Origin: Crossaster papposus
Lineage: Eukaryota; Echinodermata; Asteroidea; Velatida; Solasteridae
Direction of reading: 5' to 3'
Assembly (NCBI GenBank): GCA_037893245.1
Contig: JBAIAA010000414.1
Location: 1,960,001-2,024,000 of the forward strand
Length of the DNA stretch: 64,000 nucleotides
Shown: in pieces, positions 12,975 to 64,000 of the stretch
Position numbering within the stretch: the stretch's first letter is position 1
How the letters are laid out: each line of letters opens with the position of its first letter
Translations under genes and position numbers: made by a program
Notes under the pieces: generated by a model
Told to the model about the DNA's origin: nothing
Seen by the model: only the letters and a program-made list of their open reading frames with translations
Database searches by the model: none

Positions 12975-14042
12975 TCATGGTCCAATTTCACGCGTTTTCA
13001 TGCTACATGCTTTCATGGAATAACCTGAATTCCATGAGCTCCATAGCACGCCTTTGTAACGATCTGCATTCTTGTATGGGTAATATACACCATTTAAGTG
13101 AGAATAATAACAGTTATTAAACCACCAGGCTCCTTCGCACACAGATTGTGCACAACTATTGTTCTGTGACGCATCATTGTCACGATCCTTTGTTGAAAAG
13201 GGATGTCCTTTTTGATAAAACTTAGTATTTCCCTGATACCCAAGAGAGTCGCCGGCAGTGCTGCTGGCAACGTATTGGTTATAATTTAGATTGTACCCAC
13301 CCGGGGATATTTGAAAATCTAAGTAGTTTGCCCATGCCGTGTTGCCCTCCCAGCCCTCTAAATCAACTCGTAGCTCCCATGTTCCACGTAAATCGTCGGA
13401 CGTCAGAGTCACCAAGTTGTCATTACCCAACCAGAACTCACCAGACAGATTGCCAAAGCCAGACTGGTAGTCGGTCCAGTTACGGTAGAAGTCCACGCTG
13501 CCATCTTGTCGCCTCTGAAACACGATCCATCCCCCGCCGTCAGTTTCCATGTCACAGTAGACACGAAGATCGTCATTGCAGAATTTCCCTGGGTAGATTG
13601 TGTAGATACCGCTTGAACGATAACCAGCATCTAAGAGCATCTTGCAACTTTTGTAGCGATTCAAGGAACTACCAGCCAGTGAGTAGCAAGGAGTGTCCTC
13701 ATCTGCATCAAAGTACACACTCTTTTGAGTTGCATTGAAGTAGTCGAGATGCTGCCGTCTTATGGCAAGGTTTAACTCGCACATGTTACTGCAGTCATTA
13801 AAGTTAAAAGATTTGCAATGTTGATCCATGCTGCATTCACGTCCGCAGATGACACGAGATCGTACAATTTTGGTTGCAAACGCAAAGCCTTTTAGGGCGC
13901 GATTTTCTGCGGCATAAAACGAATGTTTCCCTGTATAGGAAGTTTCATATCCAGAGACGGACGAGGTAGCTCCCTGACTTGTGATAAATATTATGTGAAA
14001 TAGTTGCAACCCAGTAAAGGTCAGTTTCGCCATTGCTTCCAT
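12975..14042 (-). CDS. Secreted PAN/apple plus fibrinogen-domain protein, paralogue 1
   Basis: A 355-residue intronless frame. The first 27 or so residues form a signal peptide (MEAMAKLTFTGLQLFHIIFI). Residues about 45-112 form a PAN/apple-like domain with Cys spacing CGRECSMDQHCKSFNFNDCSNMCEL. Residues about 130-355 are a fibrinogen C-terminal domain: VYCDMETDGGGWIVFQRR, FGNLSGEFWLGND, the calcium-loop type DRDND, GAWWFNNC and SHLNGVYY. In other animals this class binds sugars or acetylated ligands outside the cell, often in immunity or adhesion; the ligand here is unknown. It uniquely carries two extra cysteine-region residues (NNSCAQSVCEGAWWF). The first ATG has G at -3 and +4, and an ATTATAC-type A/T box lies about 60 bp upstream. 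Paralogues 2 and 3 lie on the same strand. Confidence 0.9.
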   Translation of the reverse strand: MEAMAKLTFTGLQLFHIIFITSQGATSSVSGYETSYTGKHSFYAAENRALKGFAFATKIVRSRVICGRECSMDQHCKSFNFNDCSNMCELNLAIRRQHLDYFNATQKSVYFDADEDTPCYSLAGSSLNRYKSCKMLLDAGYRSSGIYTIYPGKFCNDDLRVYCDMETDGGGWIVFQRRQDGSVDFYRNWTDYQSGFGNLSGEFWLGNDNLVTLTSDDLRGTWELRVDLEGWEGNTAWANYLDFQISPGGYNLNYNQYVASSTAGDSLGYQGNTKFYQKGHPFSTKDRDNDASQNNSCAQSVCEGAWWFNNCYYSHLNGVYYPYKNADRYKGVLWSSWNSGYSMKACSMKTREIGP

Positions 14043-14320
14043 TACTTAAAGGATTCGTTAAAATCAGATGACTTAACGTCGATCACAGTTTGTTTTATTT
14101 GTTTTTGTATAATGTGCGCCACATATAGTTGAATTCACGGGAAGAAAATCCAGCGATTTGTCGTGTCTGATTGAACTATCCACAATGGTTGTTCAACGAC
14201 TACGAGTCAAGCCGTACTGCTTTCGGCTGCTGTCCTCTCTATACAAATGCTAGGATGTTTCTGTGCTACAGAGGCCTGGCGATGGTGGGACTTGGTATAG
14301 TTTACAGAAAGGAATGGGTT
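14043..14320. promoter_or_regulatory. Conserved 5' flank of fibrinogen paralogue 1
   Basis: The bases upstream of the start (CCTTTAAGTAATGG around the ATG, read on the minus strand) and the following 250 bp are shared with paralogue 2 at 46735-47040. A TATA-like ATTATACAAAA, read toward the gene, is at about 14100-14112 and is also present at about 46785. Conservation may only reflect recent duplication, so the promoter call is tentative. A 74-codon plus-strand frame here is broken by a stop in copy 2 and is not a gene. Confidence 0.45.
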
Positions 14321-15245
14321 GAGGAAGACAACATGTATCTCTCATTCTCTCTGATTGGTTATCCAAGTGAGTACGTCATTGAGGTCAGTGGCTAGTAATT
14401 GGTCAGTATTCCCGCAGTTACAAACCGTATAGTCTTTGATTGTCTAATGTTTTATTGTAAGCTGATTACCTCGTCGGTCAGTTAGATTCTGGATAAACGT
14501 TAAGCGCTGAACTGCACTCTTCGTTCGTTTTAATTAATTGTCGTCATGCAACAATAATTGCCGACAAGATGTAATTAACGGAAGTGGGCTGCGCTCCATG
14601 TAAGAACATTGATGAGCAGCCCAGCGCCAGTTATGATGTTTAAGAATCAGGGTCACTACTTGCACAGTAAACAGCCGTCCACAACTTCAACCAATAGTTT
14701 GTGCGGGGAAACTTCTTGGCCCATCGCCAAGTAATAACCGCGGGAACTTAGCGCAAGACGGCAGATTGTCATGGAGACGGAATTCTAGTACCAATTAGAT
14801 CATCGATCTAAAAAAGCTAATAAAGGCTTAATAAATATGGTCACCCAAAACAAGGATGGTTGTATAGTGGCATTGTTGTCAAAGAAAACAATGCGACGTA
14901 CAGTGTCGGCTTGTCAATATTTATGTTAAGTTTCTGCCTATACATAAATATTGTACATATTTTCTTTAACTTCTAATTATCAGTAACAATCTTCGAAATA
15001 TACTAATTCTTTGATTTGAGATGGTTTTATATCCTTTAAGGATTTGTTTAAGTGTTAAGTTGCTTTTGCTCTTGATAATCCCCGACGTGGCGCACTCAGC
15101 TTAGGGACGAACACGTACTCGGCCGATTGTGTTCCCAATAGCCAGACGCCACTTTTTTTCTTTTTTTTTAGGACTAAACATGACATAGTTGCCGTCTCAC
15201 ATTCAATATGAAAATGGATTTACAAATCACAAGTGGCGTGTATTG
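14318..15245 (+). repeat. Left arm of a 0.94-kb inverted duplication
   Basis: This segment is the reverse complement of 18676-19626. Shared blocks include AAACGTTAAGCGCTGAA, CAGCCGTCCACAACTTCAAC, GATCATCGATCTAAAAAAGC, GTAGGGAC-type GCTTAGGGACGAACACGT and GCCGTCTCACATTCAATAT. The outer part is fibrinogen-unit 5' flank, so the fibrinogen unit itself has been inverted-duplicated, without its gene. Confidence 0.88.
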
Positions 15246-15649: not shown

Positions 15650-16327
15650 GTGGGTCCACGTAAATATTTTATATAAGTGTCCTCGGCAATTAAAAAAAAC
15701 AAATTATATGAAAGCTAGGACTTGGTAAGCAAGTAACCAAAATAGCCAAAATAGCCAGTTTTGGGCCCGCCAAAACAGTTTTTTAGCTTATTTTTAAAAA
15801 TTCACCCAGCCAAAATGCAAAATTATATCACCAAATCAACTATATCATTACAGAGAATTAGCATTGCCCTTAATTGAGAACCAAATTAAATGTTTTAGAT
15901 GTCACCCATATGCTATTTTTAGAACATGCGTTAAAGCATGTTTTTAGAACTTGTAAAATTGTAATTTTTACCCTTTTTTTATCCCTCAACTTGCCAGGAG
16001 TCTCATAATATTTTCCTTTTGGATTTGATTATAGCTTGCATTGTTCTTTTCATATCTGGTGAGAACAGTTTGGGAGATTGTATCCTCTTTAGGCAGTACT
16101 GCATCAAAAATAATCATTTTCCCAAAGTTTGAAGTAATAATACACACACAAATTGTACTTCTATGAATATGGCTCCGTTTTGAGGGGCGACATGCTTAAA
16201 GAGGCTATTGGGTTCTGTATAAATAATGCTTTAGTTTGGGTTCTGAATAAATAATGTTTTAGTTCACAACAAGTATTGTTTCCTCTTTTTATATGCCACT
16301 AATACAATGTTTTCAGAAAATGGTATA

Positions 16328-17653
16328 GGGCAATTCCACGGTAACTCGCGTTACATTTAATGGGACCAGGAAATGATTTTCAAGCTACTACTCTGCTAGT
16401 CAGGGTCATTGGAGGTAGATTTTTACTCTGCTTCAATGTGAATATTCAAGTTACTGAACAGCCAAAGAAAGACCAAAAATGTACCTTTGTTTAATTTTGA
16501 GGAGACATTTAATATCGGTAACTCGCGTTACAAAAATAGGACATAGCTATAAAGCTGAGGACAGTTTATTTAAAATTCTCCTCATACCAACATATCAGAA
16601 CCTAAATAATTATGTTTTTTCACAATGTGGGTGTGTTAGTGACAACATTAAAGTCAAATATTGATGTGGTTTTTAAGCATTAGATAGATTACAGAGAGCC
16701 TACATGTTGGTAACTCGCGTTACGGTAACTAGCGTTACACTTTGTCCACAAATAAAAGTGAAACACTACACAGTGATTGTGGGTTTTTAACTTTTAATTT
16801 CTACAACTTCAAGCAATCTCAAACATAGTTTTAACAGAACAAGCCACAAAGCCTTAAAAATTAGTGGCATTAGTGTGATTTTTATAGTGCCAAAAGACAC
16901 ACATTTGCCTATGTACAATGTACACATGCATGGGTTGAAAGAACAATTGTTATTCTTCCATTATTAATAAAGGGTTATGATCTTAAAACCAATCTTTTGT
17001 GACATTGGTGTATTTCCAATGAAGAGGGTAATGATGGAAATCACTCAAAAACAAACAAAATGGCTACATTTTATGGTAACTCGCGTTACATGTCGGTAAC
17101 TCGCGTTACATAGTAACTCGCGTTACACATTTTGTGAGAGTATTACCTAATAATGGAAAGGATGTTATGCTTTTTTCTTTTACTGACAGTTCTGAAGTGA
17201 ATCAAATTTAGAAAATATCATACTGTACTTAATCAATTTCATCTATGTGTTTAGAAAGGAGAACAAAATGATGTTTTGGTAACTCGCGTTACATCGTTCC
17301 AATACCATAAACTGAGGCCATCATGTGACTTACTAGCAATGGAACATTGATTTTTGTTCACATAAGTTTAATAATACTCGGTTCCCTAACTACTTATCAG
17401 ATGAATCAATAAGAAAAACTGTTTTTTCTTTAAAATATCAGTTTATTTCACAATTAACTTTTTTTTCTTAATTCAGAGCATAAAATTTATCGTTTACAAA
17501 TTCAAGCGTATTTTGAAAAATACTTGACGTATTTATTAAAAAAAATCTTTCCAATGAACTAGAGTTTGTACTCGACAGTGGCAGATAATTAAATGTTTCT
17601 TATCTTGAAATTTTTTTTTTTTTGGTTTTGTCCAGTCTCCTGTGGAATTGCCC
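16328..17653. mobile_element. Nested 1.33-kb element with GGGCAATTCCAC termini
   Basis: A 12-bp perfect inverted repeat GGGCAATTCCAC (16328-16339; complement at 17642-17653), or 13 bp with the flanking A/T, bounds a non-coding segment that separates the two arms of the surrounding foldback. Inside are eight copies of GTAACTCGCGTTAC. The first is only one base away from the left terminus. No clear target-site duplication was seen. Confidence 0.65.
16341..17292 (+). repeat. Eight dispersed copies of quasi-palindrome GTAACTCGCGTTAC
   Basis: Exact copies start at 16341, 16518, 16710, 17076, 17096, 17113 and 17279, with a one-base variant (TAGC core) at 16725. Each has 5-bp arms GTAAC/GTTAC around a TCGC core. 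All eight keep the core in the same orientation, and most are preceded by G and followed by A. Spacing is irregular: tight clusters at 16710-16738 and 17076-17126, and singles elsewhere. The sequence between them is unrelated. Confidence 0.93.
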
Positions 17654-18303: not shown

Positions 18304-18676
18304 AACTTACTTTCATTGCCATTAATAATTTATCCTTAGCTTTAAACCTTCACAATGCATTTTCCTACCGTTTTTATTTGGTAGGCCTACTGGGACATCG
18401 CATTAGCGCAACATGGGTAGTCGTAAAAACACGGAACGTTTCGTAACTATTTTTGTTCTAACAAAACGATGGTTCGCTAACAGTAAGCATAGCATTTTTT
18501 TATTTTAGGTTAAACCAAAAACAAAATTGACTATGGTGAATATAATTTTCTAAAAACTCACTTCAGCGGCCGTCAATAAAAACAAGCTGTAAACAAGTGT
18601 AAATAAATGCAGAGTTTTAACTTTCAGTGGAGTTTTAAATGGTAACTTGAGCAGACGAAACCCCTTCAGTACTCAA
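18304..18676. repeat. Right half of the duplicated target region
   Basis: From AACTTACTTTCATTGCC to CAGTACTCAATAC this matches 20785-21155 in direct orientation, with about one difference per 15 bases by eye. Landmarks are CTGGGACATCGCATTAGCG and CAGCGGCCGTCAATAAAAAC. Confidence 0.85.
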
Positions 18677-19626
18677 TACACGCCAATTGTGATTTGTAAA
18701 TCTATATTGAATGTGAGACGGCAACTATGTCAGGTTTATTCCGAAATTTAAAATAAAATAACAAGTGGCGTCTGGCTATTGGGAACAAAATCGGCCGGGT
18801 ACGTGTTCGTCCCTAAGCTGAGTGCGCCACGTAGGGGATTACCAAGAGCAAAAGCAACTTAACACTTAACACAAAAACAACCTAACACAACAAAAAAGTC
18901 CTTAGAGGATATAAAACCATCTCAAATAAAAAAAAAATAGTCTATTTCAAAGATTATTACTGATAATTATAAGTTGAAGAAAATATGTACAATATTTATG
19001 TATAGGCAGAAACTTAACATAAATATTGACAAGCCTACACTGTACGTCGCAAGGTTTCTTTGATAACAATGCCACTATACAACCATCCTTGTTTTGGGTG
19101 ACCCTATTTCAGCCTTTATTAGCTTTTTTAGATCGATGATCTAATTGGTGCTAGAATTCGGTCTCCATGACAATCGGCTGTCTTGTGCTAAGTTCCCGCA
19201 GTCAATCAATACTTGGCGATGGGCCAAGACGTTTTCCCGCACAAGCTACCGGTTGAAGTTGTGGACGGCTGTTCACTGCGCAAGTAGTGACCCTGATTCT
19301 GAAGTACCCAACTGGCGCTGGACTGCTCGTCAATGTTCCTACATCATGCAGCGCAGTCAACTTACTTTAATTTTACTTCTTGTGAACAATAAATTTTTGC
19401 AGGACGACAATTAATAAAACGAATTAAGAGTTTACTTCGGCGCTTAACGTTTATTCAAAATCTCACAGACCAATGAGGTTATCAGCTTACGATAAAACAT
19501 CAGCCAAAGGCTACGGTTTGAAACTGCGGGAATACAGACCAATTACTAGTCACTGACGTAAATTACGTACTCACTTGAATAACCCTTCAGAGAGAATGAG
19601 GAATACACACGGTCTGCCTCATAGCC
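18676..19626 (-). repeat. Right arm of the 0.94-kb inverted duplication
   Basis: Reverse complement of 14318-15245. It ends outward in fibrinogen-unit 5' flank (minus-strand landmark TATTCAAGTGAGTACGT) but no fibrinogen coding sequence follows. Confidence 0.88.
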
Positions 19627-45696: not shown

Positions 45697-46734
45697 TCAT
45701 ATTTCACGCATTTTCATGCTACATGCTTTCATAGAATATACACGCGATTTCCATGAATGCCATTGTACGCCCTTGGTATCACCGGCATTCTCATCTGGGT
45801 AATATCCACCATTCAAGTGAGACACAAAACACCATTCAAACCACCAGGCTCCTGTGAGCACTTGTGCGCAATGATATGGCGCATCATCATTGTCACGATC
45901 CTTTGTCGTAAAGAGACGTCCTCTGTGAGACCCAAGAGAGTCACCGGCGGTGCTGCTGGCATCGTATTGGTCATAATTCAGATTGTACTCACCCGGGGAT
46001 ATTTGGAAATCTGAGTACTTTGCCCATGCCGTGTTACCGTCCCAGTCCTCTAAGTCAACTCGTAGCTCCCACGTTCCACGTAAATCATCAGACGTCAGAG
46101 TCACCAAGTTGTCGTTACCCAACCAGAACTCACCGGACAGATTTCCAAAGCCAGACTGGTAGTCGGCCCAGTTACGGTAGAAGTCCACGCTGCCATCTTG
46201 TCGCCTCTGAAACACGATCCATCCCCCGCCGTCAGTTTCCATGTCACAGTAGACACGAAGATCGTCATTGCAAAATTGCTCTGGGTAGATTGTGTAGATA
46301 CCGCTTGAACGATAACCAGCATCTAAGAGCATCTTGCAACTTCTGTAGCGATTCAAGGAACTATCAGCCAGTGAGTAGAGAGGTGTGTCCTCATCTGCAT
46401 CAAAGTACACGTTCCCTTGAGATGCATTGAAGTAGTCGAGATGCTGCCGTCTCATGGCAAGGTTCAACTCGCACATTTTGCTGCAGTCATTAAAGTTAAA
46501 AGACTTGCAATGTTGATCCATGCTGCATTCACGTCCGCAGATGACACGAGATCGTACAATTTTGGTTGCAAACGCAAACCCTTTTAGGGCGCGATTTTCT
46601 GCGGCATAATACGCATGTTTCCCTGCATAAGAAGATCCATATCCAGAGACGGACGAGGTAGCTTCCTGACATATGATGAATATTATGTGAAATAGTTGCA
46701 ACCCAGTAAAGGGCAGTTTCGCTATTGCTTCCAT
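45697..46734 (-). CDS. Secreted PAN/apple plus fibrinogen-domain protein, paralogue 2
   Basis: A 345-residue intronless frame. It has the same architecture as paralogue 1: signal peptide (MEAIAKLPFTGLQLFHIIFI), PAN/apple-like Cys domain (CGRECSMDQHC to CELNLAMRR), and a fibrinogen domain with CDMETDGGGWIVFQRR, EFWLGNDN, DRDND and GAWWFEWC. It differs by a deletion of about eight residues between DSLG and FTTKDRDND, where paralogues 1 and 3 have a Tyr/Gln/Lys-rich loop, and it ends two residues earlier (MKMREI). The loop sits just before the calcium-binding segment, so ligand contacts could differ; that is an inference. The 5' flank is conserved with paralogue 1, while the 3' side is unrelated because Ngaro copy B and AT-rich DNA lie there. 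Confidence 0.88.
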   Translation of the reverse strand: MEAIAKLPFTGLQLFHIIFIICQEATSSVSGYGSSYAGKHAYYAAENRALKGFAFATKIVRSRVICGRECSMDQHCKSFNFNDCSKMCELNLAMRRQHLDYFNASQGNVYFDADEDTPLYSLADSSLNRYRSCKMLLDAGYRSSGIYTIYPEQFCNDDLRVYCDMETDGGGWIVFQRRQDGSVDFYRNWADYQSGFGNLSGEFWLGNDNLVTLTSDDLRGTWELRVDLEDWDGNTAWAKYSDFQISPGEYNLNYDQYDASSTAGDSLGSHRGRLFTTKDRDNDDAPYHCAQVLTGAWWFEWCFVSHLNGGYYPDENAGDTKGVQWHSWKSRVYSMKACSMKMREI

Positions 46735-47530
46735 TACTTAAAGGATTTGTTAAAATCAGATGACTAAACGTCGATTTTATTTTTTGTATAATATGCGCCA
46801 CAAAATTGAAATCACGGGAAGAAAATCTAGCGATTTTTCGTGTCTGATTGAACTATCCACAATGGTTGTTCAGCGACTACAAGTCAAGCCGTACTGCTTT
46901 CGGCTGCTGTCCTCTCTATACAAATGCTAGGATGCTCCTGTGATATAGAGGCCTGGCGATGATTGTACTTGGTATAGTTTACAGAAAGGAATGGGTTGAG
47001 GCAGACGATGTGTCTCTCTCATTCTCTCTGATTGGTTATCCAAGTGATCACGTCATCCACGTCAGTGGCTAGTAGATGGTCCGTATTCCCGCAGTTACAA
47101 ACCGTAGCCTTTGATTGGCTAATGTTTTATTGTAAGCTGATTACCTCATCGTTCTGTGAGATTCTGGATAAACGTTAAGCGCTGAAGTACAGTCTTAATT
47201 CGTTTTAAATAATTGTCGTCACGCCACGCCAAACAAAGACACGGGCAATCTGGAGATTTCATATGCGCTCATCAATTTCACGCTGGTTGATTCCATTCTC
47301 TAAACTTGAATGAGAAAGTCAGAGATAAAGTCGTCTATAAACTAAGAGGAGTCTTTACATTATTATAGCTTATACAAACGACAACACGAGCTGTCCACGA
47401 TATTGATTTTGTACCAGTGAATCTAGGACAATAAGAGGCAATTCTCTGGTTACTATGGTAACTCCTTCTATTGTAGGCCACAAGCTGATTACGTTTAAGG
47501 AAGAACGATTTATACTAAACCTGAATTGAC
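46735..47530. repeat. Fibrinogen unit 2, 5' flank
   Basis: Collinear with 14043-14520 near the gene (CCACAATGGTTGTTCAGCGA, AAACGTTAAGCGCTGAAG). Farther out it matches 52260-52470 and 61190-61310 (CAGTGAATCTA, ATTCTCTGGTTACTATGG, CACAAGCTGATTACGTTTAA). A TATA-like ATATTATACAAAA toward the gene is at about 46785. Confidence 0.8.
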
Positions 47531-47643: not shown

Positions 47644-48328
47644 GGGTCAACTTAAATATTTCAAATAAGTGTTCTCGTCAATAATTTGTTTTTTAAATAT
47701 GAAATGACTTGGTAAGCAAGTAACGAAAATAGAACTTACATTTTTGTATGGTCTGTTGCCATGCTAACAGGCCATTTTGTGTTTTGCTTATAATTTGAAA
47801 AAAATCACCCAGCCAAAACGCCAAAATCACCAAATCAATTATATCATTACAACGAATCATCATTGCCCTTTCTTGAGAACAAAATAAAATGTTTTAAATG
47901 TTACCCTCATGCTATTTTTGGAACATGCGTTAAAGCTTGTTTTTAGAACTTGTTAAATTGTAATTTTTACCCTATTTTTGTCCCTCAAAAAGTCAACTTG
48001 CCAGGGATCTAAGAATATTTTCCTTTTGGATTTGATTAGAGCCAACATTGGTCTTTTTATATCTGCTGAGATAAGTTTTTGGGATTATATCCTCTTTAGG
48101 CAGTACTGCATCAAAAATTGTTATTTTCCCCCCAAAAATGGAAAAATGAAATTTGAGGTTTCCCTTCGGTTTAAGGTAATAATACACACACAAATTGTAC
48201 TTTTATGAATCCGGCTCCTTTTTTAAATTTATAAGAGTGTAGGCCTGTGAATTACTCCTACTGAATAAGCAGCATTTTTGACGGCGAAAATCTAGACTAA
48301 CCCCCTCCACAGCATTTCTTACATACCA
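47644..48328. mobile_element. Solo arm of the long-armed foldback family
   Basis: Starts AGTGGGTCAACTTAAATATTT and follows 15650-16190 (GGTAAGCAAGTAAC, GGCAGTACTGCATC, AATAATACACACACAAATTG). It then continues into sequence seen only in the other arm (CTACTGAATAAGCAGC, CCCCCTCCACAGCATTTC). It therefore contains the complete arm, including the stretch lost from the left arm of the 15650 element. Confidence 0.78.
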
Positions 48329-48499
48329 TTTAGGTAATAACAGTTCGAGGACCCGGTTATTACTGCGTGATAATGACCGGGTTGGGGGATGACCGCTGGT
48401 AATGGATCGAGCCGAAGGTCAAAATGCTCCAAATCTCGTGACTTTTCTTGGTTTTGGGGTGGTGGGTCACATTTAACAAATACTTTTTACCTCGTCTTG

Positions 48500-50813: not shown

Positions 50814-51875
50814 TCATGGTCCAATTTCACGCGTTTTCATGCTACATGCTTTCATGGAATAACCCCTTTTCCATGAGATCCATCGCACGCCTTGGTAACG
50901 ATCTGCATTCTTGTCTGGGTAATATACACCATTCAAGTGAGAATAATAACAGCTATTAAACCACCAGGCTCCTGTGGTCAGTTGTGCACAATTGTTCTGT
51001 GACGCATCATTGTCACGATCCTTTGTTGAAAAGGGATGTCCTTTTTGATAATAGTACATACTATTTCCCTGATACCCCAGAGAGTCGCCGGCAGTGCTGC
51101 TGGCATCGTATTGGTCATAATTCAGATTGTACCCACCCGGAGATATTTGGAAATCTGAGTACTTTGCCCATGCCGTGTTACCGTCCCAGTCCTCTAAGTC
51201 AACTCGTAGCTCCCATGATCCACGTGAATCGTCGGACGTCAGAGTCACCAAGTTGTCATTACCCAACCAGAACTCACCGGACAGATTTCCAAAGCCAGAC
51301 TGGTAGTCGGTCCAGTTACGGTAGAAGTCCTCGCTGCCATCTTGTCGCCTCTGAAACACGATCCATCCCCCACCGTCAGCTTCCATGTCACAGTAGACAC
51401 AAAGACCGTCATTGCCGAATCCCTCTGGGTAGATTGTGTAAATACCGCTTGAACGATAACCAGCATCTAAGAGCATCTTGCAACTTTTGTAGCGATTCAA
51501 GGAACTATCACTATCAGCCAGTGAGTAGAGTGGTGTGTCCTCGTCTGTATCAAAGTACACGCTCCCTTGAGTTGCATCGAAGTAGTCCAGATGCTGCCGT
51601 CTTGTGGCAAGGTTCAACTCGCACATTTTACTGCAGTTGTTAAAGTTAAACGACTTGCAACGTTCATCCATGCTGCATTCCCGTCCGCAGATGACACGAG
51701 ATCGCACAGTTTTTGTTGCAAACGCAAGTTCTTCTAGGGCTCGATTTTCGGCGGCATAAAACGTATGTTTTTCTGTATATGAAGATGTTTCAAATCCAAA
51801 GACAGGCGAGGTAGCTCCCTCGAAAATGATGAATATTATGTGAAATAGTTGAAAACAGATGATTTGTTTTGCCAT
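50814..51875 (-). CDS. Secreted PAN/apple plus fibrinogen-domain protein, paralogue 3
   Basis: A 353-residue intronless frame. The start Met corresponds to the second Met of paralogue 1 (MAKQIICFQLFHIIFIIFEG, signal peptide). The PAN/apple-like region runs CGRECSMDERC to CELNLATRR. The fibrinogen domain has GGGWIVFQRRQDGSEDF, EFWLGNDN, DRDND, NNCAQLTTGAWWFNSC and SHLNGVYY. One cysteine seen in paralogues 1 and 2 (FCNDDLRVYC) is glycine here and a new cysteine appears five residues later (FGNDGLCVYC), so the odd-cysteine count is kept but moved. There is a two-residue insertion (DSDSSLNR) before the fibrinogen domain. A at -3 gives a good start context. The close relation to paralogue 1 and the intact frame suggest a working gene. 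Confidence 0.9.
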   Translation of the reverse strand: MAKQIICFQLFHIIFIIFEGATSPVFGFETSSYTEKHTFYAAENRALEELAFATKTVRSRVICGRECSMDERCKSFNFNNCSKMCELNLATRRQHLDYFDATQGSVYFDTDEDTPLYSLADSDSSLNRYKSCKMLLDAGYRSSGIYTIYPEGFGNDGLCVYCDMEADGGGWIVFQRRQDGSEDFYRNWTDYQSGFGNLSGEFWLGNDNLVTLTSDDSRGSWELRVDLEDWDGNTAWAKYSDFQISPGGYNLNYDQYDASSTAGDSLGYQGNSMYYYQKGHPFSTKDRDNDASQNNCAQLTTGAWWFNSCYYSHLNGVYYPDKNADRYQGVRWISWKRGYSMKACSMKTREIGP

Positions 51876-60167: not shown

Positions 60168-63092
60168 TCCATGTTAACAGTATCGCCTAACTTAAACATT
60201 AACGCAAATTGCTGCTAGAGGGCGCAATTTCACTTTATCATGGCTTGCTTAACCACATTGGTATAACGTGCATGTTCCTCGATGAGCCAAACTAAAGTGA
60301 ATAAACATGGGAAGAACTTGAAGATATAAAACAAAACGTCAGATGTGCATGTTTTTAAAAGAGACTCGAAAAAATCTGTCTTTCAAAATATGTTAAACTC
60401 TTAATAAAGAAACATGTATTCTTAGTCTTTTTTAATAATTTATGTTATACATTTCTTTTTTTTTGATTTTGTAATGTTTTCAATGTTCTTATTTTTGTCC
60501 GTCAGCCAGTGGAAAATTGTAATAACAAAATTATAAATGAAATAAAATAAAAGACTCGATCCAAGAACACTATCGGAAAATGAGAAACTCTTATTTATAC
60601 TCGCTATGATATTGTAGTTCAGTCAATTTACATCAAATTAGGGCAATAGAATTTATGTTAACACGGTCACGCGGGGGAACTATCATTCTTTGACATTTGG
60701 CGATTGCTATGGTGTTGCTGCATATCAATTCGATTTATATGCCTTTGTAAGCTAATGTTTAGGATTCAAGACCAAATGTGAGTGCAGCAACACCATAGCA
60801 ATGGCCAAATGCCACAGATTGATCGAGGACAGCAAGTTCAACAAGTGCTTGAAAAACAACCTTCCACTCATAGATCAATAGAAAACATTAGATTGTTCAC
60901 ATGTTGTTTGTTTATTTATTTGAAGTTGTTTGACGCTTGATCTATTTCTATTGCAATTAGTTCTGGGTCTTGGCGTAAATTGACCGAATTATTGCGCCCT
61001 GACGCATCCTCATTAAAAACGTATGAGCAGAAAACAAGTTGGCCTCGAATTACACAGTACTGTGCAGCAGTAAACAGGTCACCCATAAACGTTAAGCGCT
61101 GAAGGCACGGACACCCGGAAGATTGCGTATACGTTCATATCAATTTCACGCTGGTTTAGTCCGTTCTCAAAGCTTGAATAAGAAATTATGATATTGAATT
61201 AGTTCCAGTGAATCTAATGAGAAGAAGAGATAATTATCTGGTTACTGTGCCAACTCCTTCCACTGAAGGCTACAAGCTGATTACGTTTAAAGACAGTCAG
61301 GTTGCCGCGTACTCGATAATGAGGCGAACAGCGACGTTTTTTTGCAGCGAATTGATGGTCTCGCAGCAATGAGATTTTACAAGATTTTGTGAGCATGGAG
61401 GAGTGCCCCGCGTAAATGGGCCACAATTCCATTTTCGCAGCATTGTTGGGCCAACACGGGGTGTTATGTAAACATGTATTATTTTCTGTGTCGAATAATA
61501 ATATTTTCATTGATAATTTCGTTGTGAATGTTTTTTACGAGGCTTGTGAAATTAGGTATAAAAATCCTTTTGTTTAGAATGCCTGCACGTTTTGGGTGAC
61601 CCTGACTGTTTCGGGATGTTTTGAGACAACATTTCTCATTTGCTACAAACTTGAAGAGTTATGCTTTCGACTCTTACTATTCAACGTCATGCAACGTCTA
61701 GTCATGCAAGGCCAAAGGCACGGAAAATCGGAAGATTGCATAATTATGCGTTCATATCAATTTCACGCTGGTTGTTTCCATTCTCAAAGCTTAAATGAGA
61801 AATTAAGTCAGAGAAAAAGTTGTCTATTAAGAGGAGTCTTTACAATTATTACATCCATGCTAAACATTAACGCAAATTCCTGCTAGAGTGCGCAATTTCA
61901 CTTTATCATGGCTTTCTTAACCGCATTGGTTCAACGTGCATGTTTCTCGATGAGCCCAACTGAAGTGTATAAACATGGGAAGAACTTGAAGATATAAAAC
62001 AAAACGTCTGATATGCATGTTTTTAAAAGAGATTCGAAAAAATCAGTCTTTCAAGATATGTTAAACTCTTAATAAAGGAACATGTATCCTTAGTCTTTTT
62101 TAGAAATTTATTTTGTACATTTTGTTTTTCTTTGATATTGTAATTTTTTGCAATGTTCTTATTTTTTTCCGTCAGCCAGTGGAAAATTGTAATACAAAAA
62201 TTATAAATGAAATAAAACAAAAGACTCGATCCAAGAATACTATCGGAAAATAAGAAACTCTCATCTATACTCGCTATGATATTGTAGTTTAGTCAATTTA
62301 CATCAAATTAGGGCCTGACCTAGAAGTAATTGCAATATAATTTGTTTTTCCACGGTCACGCGGGGAAACTATCATTCTTTGACATTTGGCCATTGCTAGG
62401 GTGTTGCTACACTCCTGCTATCCTAAACATTAGCTTACAGAGGCATATCAATTCGATTGATATGTTTTTGTAAGCTAATGTTTAGGATTGAAGACCAAAT
62501 GTGAGTGCAGCAACACCATAGCAATGGCCAAATGCCACCAGGCAGATTGATCGAGGACAACAAGTTCGAGAAGTGCTTGAAAAACAACCTTCCACTCAAT
62601 AGAAAACATTAGATTGTTCACATGTTGTTTGTTTATTTATTTGAAGTTGTTTGACGCTTGACTGATTTCTATTGCAATTAGTTCTACGTCTTAGCGTAAA
62701 TTGACCGATCTATTGCGCCCTAAAGCATCCTCATTAAAAACATATGAGCAGAAAACATGTTGGCCTCGAATTACACAGTACTGTGCAGCAGTAAACAGGT
62801 CACCCATAAACGTTAAGCGCTGAAGGCACGGACACCCGGGAGATTGCATATACGTTCATATCAATTTCACGCTGGTTGTGTCCATTCTCAAAGCTTGAAT
62901 AAGAAATTATGATATTGAATTAGTTCCAGTGAATCTAATGAGACGAAGAGGTAATTATCTGGTTACTATGCCAACTCCTCCTATTGAAGGCTACAAGCTG
63001 ATTACGTTCAAAGACAGTCAGGTTGCAGCGTACTCGATAATGAGGCGAACAGCGACGTTTTATTTGCAGCGAATTGACGGTCTCGCAGCAGC
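60168..63092. repeat. Tandem duplication of a 1.7-kb fibrinogen 5'-flank block
   Basis: 60168-61852 and 61853-63092 are direct copies. Shared words are GCGCAATTTCACTTTATCATGG, CACGGTCACGCGGG, CATAAACGTTAAGCGCTGAAG and GATATTGAATTAGTTCCAGT. The right part matches the 5' flank of the fibrinogen units (GTTACTATGCCAACTCC, CTACAAGCTGATTACGTT). The second copy runs into the 12-bp array; the first copy instead reads CTCGCAGCAATGAGATTTT at that point. Confidence 0.87.
62380..62540. mobile_element. Hairpin element; shortened copy at 60694-60816
   Basis: Left arm ATTTGGCCATTGCTAGGGTG to ATCCTAAACATTAGCTTAC pairs with right arm GTAAGCTAATGTTTAGGAT to CACCATAGCAATGGCCAAAT, giving arms of about 70 bp. 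In the other tandem copy (60694-60816) most of the inner left arm is missing, so only the outer 30 bp can still pair. Confidence 0.8.
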
Positions 63093-63780
63093 GAGGTCCC
63101 GGGCGAGGAACCGGGCGAGGTCCCGGGCGAGGTCCCGGGCGAGGTCCCGGGCGAGGTCCCGGGCGAGGTCCCGGGCGAGGTCCCGGGCGAGGTCCCGGGC
63201 GAGGTCCCGGGCGAGGTCCCGGGCGAGGTCCCGGGCGAGGTCCCGGGCGAGGTCCCGGGCGAGGTCCCGGGCGAGGTCCCGGGCGAGGTCCCGGGCGAGG
63301 TCCCGGGCGAGGTCCCGGGCGAAGTCCCGGGCGAGGTCCCGGGCGAGGTCCCGGGCGAGGTCCCGGGCGAGGTCCCGGGCGAGGTCCCGGGCGAGGTCCC
63401 GGGCGAGGTCCCGGGCGAGGTCCCGGGCGAGGTCCCGGGCGAGGTCCCGGGCGAGGTCCCGGGCGAGGTCCCGGGCGAGGTCCCGGGCGAGGTCCCGGGC
63501 GAGGTCCCGGGCGAGGTCCCGGGCGAGGTCCCGGGCGAGGTCCCGGGCGAGGTCCCGGGCGAGGTCCCGGGCGAGGTCCCGGGCGAGGTCCCGGGCGAGG
63601 TCCCGGGCGAGGTCCCGGGCGAGGTCCCGGGCGAGGTCCCGGGCGAGGTCCCGGGCGAGGTCCCGGGCGAGGTCCCGGGCGAGGTCCCGGGCGAGGTCCC
63701 GGGCGAGGTCCCGGGCGAGGTCCCGGGCGAGGTCCCGGGCGAGGTCCCGGGCGAGGTCCCGGGCGAGGTCCCGGCGAGGT
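63093..63780 (+). repeat. About 57 near-perfect copies of GAGGTCCCGGGC
   Basis: Period 12 bp, starting at 63093. Variants are seen only in unit 2 (GAGGAACCGGGC, 63105), unit 20 (GAAGTCCCGGGC, 63321) and the last unit, which passes into GAGGTCCAGGGC. Every unit has the 6-bp palindrome CCCGGG. Long Arg-Ala-Arg-Ser or Gly-Arg-Gly-Pro frames on both strands are consequences of the in-frame period and are not genes. Confidence 0.97.
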
Positions 63781-64000
63781 CCAGGGCGCAGCATGGGCAC
63801 GGCCAGGGCGCTGCCAGAAGTTGTGGATCTACATCTGTAGAATACTATGCAAACTCCTTAATGGCATATCCCATACAGTTGCAAATTCAAGTTGCCTTAC
63901 ACCTGCCAATCACGCTGCGATAATTACATACTCACAAACTGAACACAAACAACCTAAATAAATTGAGACAAATTAATCGTTGATTGGTTCTTGTCGCTCA
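63781..64000. repeat. Start of fibrinogen unit 4 left arm
   Basis: GCTGCCAGAAGTTGTGGATC at about 63812, then CTGCCAATCACGCTGCGA-type sequence and AAATTAATCGTTGATTGG up to the window end. This is collinear with 10752-10940 and 48571-48760. Confidence 0.87.

Follow-up and report, generated by a model that had tools for sequence, protein, structure and literature searches.

The element and its eight sites

The window is the whole stretch of 64,000 nucleotides of Crossaster papposus DNA that was analysed. It contains a non-autonomous DNA transposon with the features listed here in window coordinates; element positions are counted from the left end.

16324..16327, no strand: TATA, the left target duplication, whose right counterpart is altered in the window copy and complete in L012 and L013
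16328..17653, + strand: non-autonomous DNA transposon of 1,326 bp, bearing all eight sites; full-length matches elsewhere
16328..16339, + strand: left terminal inverted repeat GGGCAATTCCAC, 12 bp
16328..16358, + strand: site-bearing end (S-end), 31 bp, made up of the terminal repeat, the first palindrome and ATTT; model match 37.9 bits
16341..16354, + strand: site 1, exact, element position 14
16518..16531, + strand: site 2, exact, element position 191
16710..16723, + strand: site 3, exact, element position 383
16725..16738, + strand: site 4, one mismatch, element position 398; 15 bp after site 3; ends the left cluster
16739..17075, no strand: inter-cluster stretch; in the C53 and C162 relatives this place holds a transposase-like gene
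17076..17089, + strand: site 5, exact, element position 749; opens the right cluster
17096..17109, + strand: site 6, exact, element position 769
17113..17126, + strand: site 7, exact, element position 786
17279..17292, + strand: site 8, exact, element position 952; distance from its start to the right end 374 bp, the same as in C162
17627..17636, - strand: plain end (P-end), inner block; usual form AGTGGACAAA, in this copy ACTGGACAAA; bp 18-27 of the end
17642..17653, - strand: right terminal inverted repeat (inverted GGGCAATTCCAC), 12 bp
48312..48334, - strand: paralogous empty site with a single TATG; filled copies have TATA on both sides

Between 16341 and 17292 the 14-mer GTAACTCGCGTTAC is present in seven exact copies and one copy with one mismatch, all in a single orientation (+ strand), which confirms what a preliminary description of this DNA had reported for a region of about 950 bp. 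The chance expectation was claimed there to be below one, and shuffling agrees with this: the shuffled window gives a mean of 0.30 and a maximum of 2 matches at up to 2 mismatches (100 shuffles). The 7 matches on the minus strand are the exact sites re-read as near-palindromes with 2 mismatches. A single base lies between the left GGGCAATTCCAC (16328-16339) and site 1, again as described. In the 1.02-Gb genome the exact 14-mer is found far above background, 118 + 105 = 223 times versus 1 + 0 for the reversed control. The close neighbours 16710/16725 and 17076/17096/17113 are 15, 17 or 20 bp apart and look like local tandem duplicates, so that the eight sites would amount to about five separate positions.

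The element had also been described as nested. It does lie between long inverted arms (14320-15245 with 18674-19621, 84%), but 14043-14552 matches 46735-47227 beside a second fibrinogen-domain gene (88%); the arms thus match in part the 5' flank of a neighbouring gene of this type and need not be an outer transposon. They look like an inverted duplication in a gene cluster. Three similar frames of 345-355 aa on the minus strand (12975-14042, 45697-46734 and 50814-51875) look from their sequence like fibrinogen-domain genes, and the flanks of this duplicated fibrinogen-domain-like cluster form the inverted arms around the element. Long repeat frames are open on both strands at 62929-63961, arginine-rich and glycine-proline-rich; they are most likely a minisatellite.

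Copies, target duplications and the empty site

A DNA search of the genome with 16328-17653 gave at least 47 matches; among the matches listed 16 are full length, the window's own included, and these are 88-100% identical to the window element. The 24 copies that were aligned contain 198 sites when up to 2 mismatches are allowed; 174 sites are exact and 0 oppositely oriented. The aligned copies thus neither lack the 14-mer nor carry it in random orientation. The spacings of the sites are near-constant across the 24 copies (about 177, 190, 351, 20 and 165), and the number of sites varies from 6 to 11 per copy through multiplied 15-, 17- and 20-bp units.

The duplication TATA belongs to five copies; it is complete in L012 and L013, and the right copy is changed in the window, L010 and L011. 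With the copies oriented, the other 4-bp duplications are TGAC (one copy), AGTT (one), AAAA (three) and ATTT (six). CGAA is found at seven left-hand parts; the complete unit is seen in L028, which has a duplication on either side and an insert read as a fragment of a reverse transcriptase. L025, which completes the 24 aligned copies, is a left-hand part and shows no duplication. Copies with a common duplication also share their flanks, which means that there were six insertion events, multiplied by duplication of the surroundings. The joined flanks match 48331-48126 at 84.9% over 212 bp, an alignment that spans the right flank and, of the left one, only about its final 10 bp.

With inverted repeats at its ends, six different 4-bp duplications in its family and an empty site, the window element is a non-autonomous DNA transposon, derived from a larger element by internal deletion. 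The earlier view of it as a non-coding element ending in GGGCAATTCCAC is thereby supported. Match coordinates give shorter deletion forms of 569 bp (C512, C963) and 980 bp (C727). The longer copies in C238 and C125 were considered and set aside, the extra DNA in L028 reading as the reverse-transcriptase fragment just mentioned. In C238:400000-412000 truncated copies of the element recur every 2,007 bp, an array of the insert-bearing form.

The CpGs of the sites persist in the window family where CpG is otherwise depleted, the observed/expected ratio outside exact sites being 0.28-0.44 in the four copies examined. Of the 24 substitutions seen inside sites of the aligned copies, 16 hit the two CpGs. 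Sites differ less between insertions than the differences within insertion groups would predict, the ratio of between-group to within-group differences being 5/9 for the sites and 90/47 for the rest (p 0.04); this is a weak test, since at least 2 of the 5 site differences are private to one-copy groups. The between-group differences alone, inside versus outside sites, give p 0.15, which is not significant.

Related ends

The 31-bp end GGGCAATTCCACGGTAACNNNNGTTACATTT occurs at 103 places in the genome at up to 3 mismatches, the window family counted in, versus 0 for the control; the S-end model includes the window sequence that scores 37.9 bits. The P-end pattern GGGCAATTCCACNGGANNGTNGACAAA was found at 62 places with the same tolerance, again counting the window family, versus 0. 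When 12 other loci were compared with the window element, 8 matched it over the terminal 31-33 bp only and 4 gave no match at the threshold. Complete relatives are elements of 812 bp (C35, duplication ACAT) and 778 bp (C196, duplication TTCT, right repeat with three mismatches). Core positions 7 and 8 of 27 tabulated first sites carry 0.06 and 0.32 bits and are thus nearly free to vary; since the arms of the site were kept constant in the search patterns, it is only this freedom of the core that is unbiased.

A number of loci with such ends have features of their own. At L047 (C193:891197-894196) a related end precedes 18 repeats of a 15-bp unit (GGTAACCGACGCTAC) and long arrays with a 20-bp unit; all this apparently lies within an intron of what reads as a tyrosine-phosphatase-like gene. 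C133 carries four related-end copies, at 276425, 397338, 499003 and 603867, about 100 kb apart. C-type-lectin-like frames adjoin the loci read (L039, L044 and L049, C260 and C930 included). The C-type-lectin loci L039, L044, L049 and L050 were rejected as candidates because their flanks are shared between copies and hence are duplicated gene surroundings. Four P-end loci, each read over 6 kb (C126, C260, C643, C584), have no second end that is convincing in both repeat and duplication and no frame recognised as a transposase, C584 offering one weak end candidate with 4 mismatches. L076, L077 and L078 have no right end with a matching duplication.

Gene-bearing relatives

C53 and C162, which were found by their end signature, encode one type of protein between the site clusters. 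The C53 reading frame is on the minus strand, starts on the side of the right cluster and is read toward the left end. The first C53 copy has one in-frame stop; another C53 copy has an open frame of 696 codons without a stop. The C162 element is 2,147 bp long with the duplication ATAT and has kept only the C-terminal part of the protein. Three pieces of the C53 and C162 protein gave 0 Pfam matches up to E = 1, the C-terminal piece had neither an NCBIfam nor a PDB match, and the viral contigs searched held no relatives. The stretches DFSEN and SDGP (both seen in C53 only) and KGPVDGIGG may constitute a putative three-acid catalytic site. A search of a limited literature collection for the protein motifs gave no match; four sequence strings gave matches which, by the titles and abstract openings in a limited collection, concern unrelated cell biology.

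The genome has 92 matches to the protein, grouped into 76 loci. Among the S-ends listed 6/100 lie within 4 kb of a protein match, versus 0.059 expected. In all six cases the gene is on the strand opposite to the S-end, and the six represent three families: C53 (three places), C162 together with C424, and C600. A tblastn search with the C-terminal piece found no trace of the gene in the window, and an element of the exact parent family, i.e. a gene-bearing element with exactly the window's motif, was not found in the genome. The left 300 bp of the window element are 61% identical to C53. The preliminary description had looked toward an autonomous relative encoding a transposase; gene-bearing relatives do exist in C53 and C162, but neither of them has the window's exact motif.

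Three Harbinger-like elements, L040, L041 and L043 (C362, C599 and C251), were tried as autonomous partner and rejected, the 31-bp end being internal there; two that were compared have their own inverted repeats elsewhere. They carry a DDE_Tnp_4 match (L040 frame tested), and their first frame looks like Myb/SANT on reading, with no Pfam match. The 31-bp end is situated about 0.8-1.3 kb inside their own left repeat and is apparently a relic of a nested element.

Four sites at each end

The sites start at the following positions, counted from the left end of each element:

Window element: 14, 191, 383, 398 and 749, 769, 786, 952
C53: 14, 192, 379, 394 and 3387, 3414, 3431, 3596
C162: 14, 185, 371, 386 and 1580, 1598, 1614, 1773
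C600: 14, 194, 377, 392 (left sites, 450 bp read)
C600 motif at C564: 14, 205, 391, 406 (from coordinates)
C489: 14, 193, 380 (left sites, 400 bp read)

Five families thus place their sites at about 14, 190 and 380. For the right cluster there are readings from the window family, C53 and C162 only, and the distance from the start of the last site to the right end is 374 bp in the window element, 374 bp in C162 and 379 bp in the second C53 copy, of which only the right end was read, its length of 3,941 bp being arithmetic from coordinates. A right end was not found in 4.2 kb of the first C53 copy, and no exact right-hand copy of the motif is listed for the C600 contig.

One motif is present in both subterminal regions of C53 (4 + 4) and C162 (4 + 4). 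The window element shares ends and subterminal layout with these two and is without the gene. From the matching positions we conclude that the parent layout was four sites to the left and four to the right with the gene between them, and that the window element is the same minus the gene. The preliminary description had placed the sites on one side of the element, and this is not borne out: the one-sided look of the window copy comes from the loss of the gene and from a lack of sites in the last 361 bp. The layout is not universal, since 16 of 19 other related-end loci have one or two sites of their own motif at up to 3 mismatches (two of the 16 read for 400 bp only).

One motif per family

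The 14-mers of the five families are GTAACTCGCGTTAC, GTTACTCACGTTAC, GTAACACGCGTTAC, GTTAGTTACGTTAC and GTGACTGACATTAC. In every family all positions read have the family's own 14-mer or a form one mismatch away from it; of the eight C162 sites three are GTAACACGCGTTTC, and one C53 site has one mismatch. Within elements the sites differ on average by 0.34 bases (93 pairs, maximum 1), and 0 of 20,000 permutations gave a mean as low. Between families the mean mismatch is 3.21 for the same ordinal position (48) and 3.20 for different positions (324), so that sharing a position does not make sites of different families more similar. The 15-bp flanks of the window sites are 41-45% identical to those of C53, C162 and C489, and 68% to those of C600. 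The C600 motif GTTAGTTACGTTAC occurs 61 times in the genome versus 22 for its reversed control, about threefold.

Function of the sites

The reading which we prefer, with a probability of roughly 0.75, is that the sites serve a cut-and-paste DNA transposon as subterminal recognition sites, to which a dimeric DNA-binding domain of the protein encoded by the full-size relatives binds. The preliminary description suggested a multimeric binding protein that was either a transposase or a captured host factor. Layout and motifs point to the transposition machinery; five families with five motifs speak against the host factor.

Alternatively, the sites could be mainly regulatory, the element-encoded protein controlling its own gene through them. 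The C53 frame lies between the clusters with the right cluster upstream of it, and TNPA, a known subterminal binder, regulates its own element according to the portion of PMC2613891 available, so such binders can do both. We nevertheless find a mainly regulatory role unlikely: site 1, which is part of a 31-bp end common to many families, adjoins the left terminal repeat, a long way from the presumed promoter, and the gene-less window family keeps all eight sites.

Use of the sites by a host DNA-binding factor, a Myb-like or methyl-CpG-sensitive protein, would fit with the two CpGs in the core of the window family and with the half-sites, which we take to resemble Myb-type sites. With a host factor one would expect a constant motif, whereas in this one genome five families have five motifs, each near-uniform inside the element. 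CpG is present in only 15/27 tabulated first sites and absent in 12/27, and the dependence of binding on CpG methylation considered earlier is therefore not supported. A host factor is in our view very improbable, and the sites most likely coevolved with an element-encoded binding protein.

Finally, we find it hardly credible that the repeats form a neutral minisatellite or owe their likeness to gene conversion: tandem units of 15, 17 and 20 bp do change the number of sites from 6 to 11 per copy, and L047 has its long arrays, but some five positions are dispersed among unrelated sequence and recur at the same places in other families, and conversion would require tracts of about 14 bp that were homogenised without their flanks, for which selection to fit one binding protein per family offers an explanation.

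For the preferred reading, recognition by the transposition protein, the following mechanism can be envisaged. A dimer of the element-encoded DNA-binding domain would grip the half-sites GTAAC/GTTAC of each palindrome, and four dimers per end would pair the left four with the right four sites before cleavage. Left could be told from right by the unequal ends, i.e. the palindrome touching the left terminal repeat and the AGTGGACAA block at the right, and the one-way cores of the sites may also help in this. As the window copy retains its eight sites and the two ends, a matching protein, if there were one, could mobilise it in trans. The same binding may also regulate the gene, the right cluster being on its upstream side.

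It is conceivable, although we regard it as tentative and rather doubtful, that these elements are an undescribed lineage of DNA transposons in which the transposase is outside the Pfam families, the synaptic layout has eight sites with four directional palindromes per end at conserved positions, and the motif has been rewritten, together with the binding protein, into five or more versions within one genome. If true, this would provide a natural series of re-specified transpososomes.

Comparison with known systems

Membership of Sola is a guess. The 4-bp duplications found here (TATA, TGAC, AGTT, AAAA, ATTT and CGAA, with ATAT in C162, ACAT in C35 and TTCT in C196) and the 12-bp repeats resemble those of Sola2 elements, which are reported to have 4-bp duplications and 12-13-bp terminal repeats, a comparison made on the published description (excerpt of PMC3627910). 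Conserved subterminal palindromes are not mentioned in the Sola2 description as excerpted (PMC3627910). The superfamily of the window element is unproved.

In bacteriophage Mu and Tn7, left and right are specified by several spaced sets of transposase sites, which differ between one end and the other. In this they resemble the elements found here; they differ in being prokaryotic, with unrelated proteins and sites that are not known to be palindromic.

PIF/Harbinger elements have a Myb-like ORF1 protein which binds the ends, and gene-less relatives which are moved in trans (PMC2836001, in part); an element-encoded DNA-binding activity at the ends and relatives moved in trans are what is predicted here. 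Their groups have characteristic duplications of 3 bp or other kinds, as far as the accessible text of PMC4482050 goes, and the 4-bp duplications found here are without consensus. The protein pair of PHIS elements (DDE_Tnp_4 with a Myb/SANT or YqaJ partner) has no counterpart by Pfam in the C53 and C162 pieces. A further difference is that the Harbinger-like elements of this genome carry the 31-bp end internally only.

Judged by ends, duplication or protein, the elements found here belong neither to PIF/Harbinger nor to CACTA. CACTA/EnSpm ends begin with CACT and the duplications are of 2-4 bp, typically 3; the ends here are GGGCAATTCCAC. The protein found here is without a tnp2-type or other Pfam match, and the sites differ in being hyphenated palindromes at fixed positions. 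The ends here have GGGC, and the duplication is 4 bp as opposed to 3 in the soybean element (PMC2613891, part of the text). The likeness is in the following: CACTA (En/Spm) elements have short terminal repeats and repeated subterminal motifs at both ends, unequal between the ends, the motif is family-specific, deletion derivatives retain it, and the subterminal repeats are bound by TNPA (same source and extent). The CACTA subterminal repeat and TNPA system serves as our working analogy. How subterminal repeats and their binding proteins change jointly is given as an open question for plant CACTA in the same part of PMC2613891. One animal genome now offers at least five families that place their left-hand sites alike and differ in motif. 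At least three of these either have linked matches to one protein family or turned up beside such matches. Comparing protein and motif across the families would be a direct test of protein-DNA coevolution, and the fixed 4 + 4 arrangement is a testable model for how ends are distinguished and paired.
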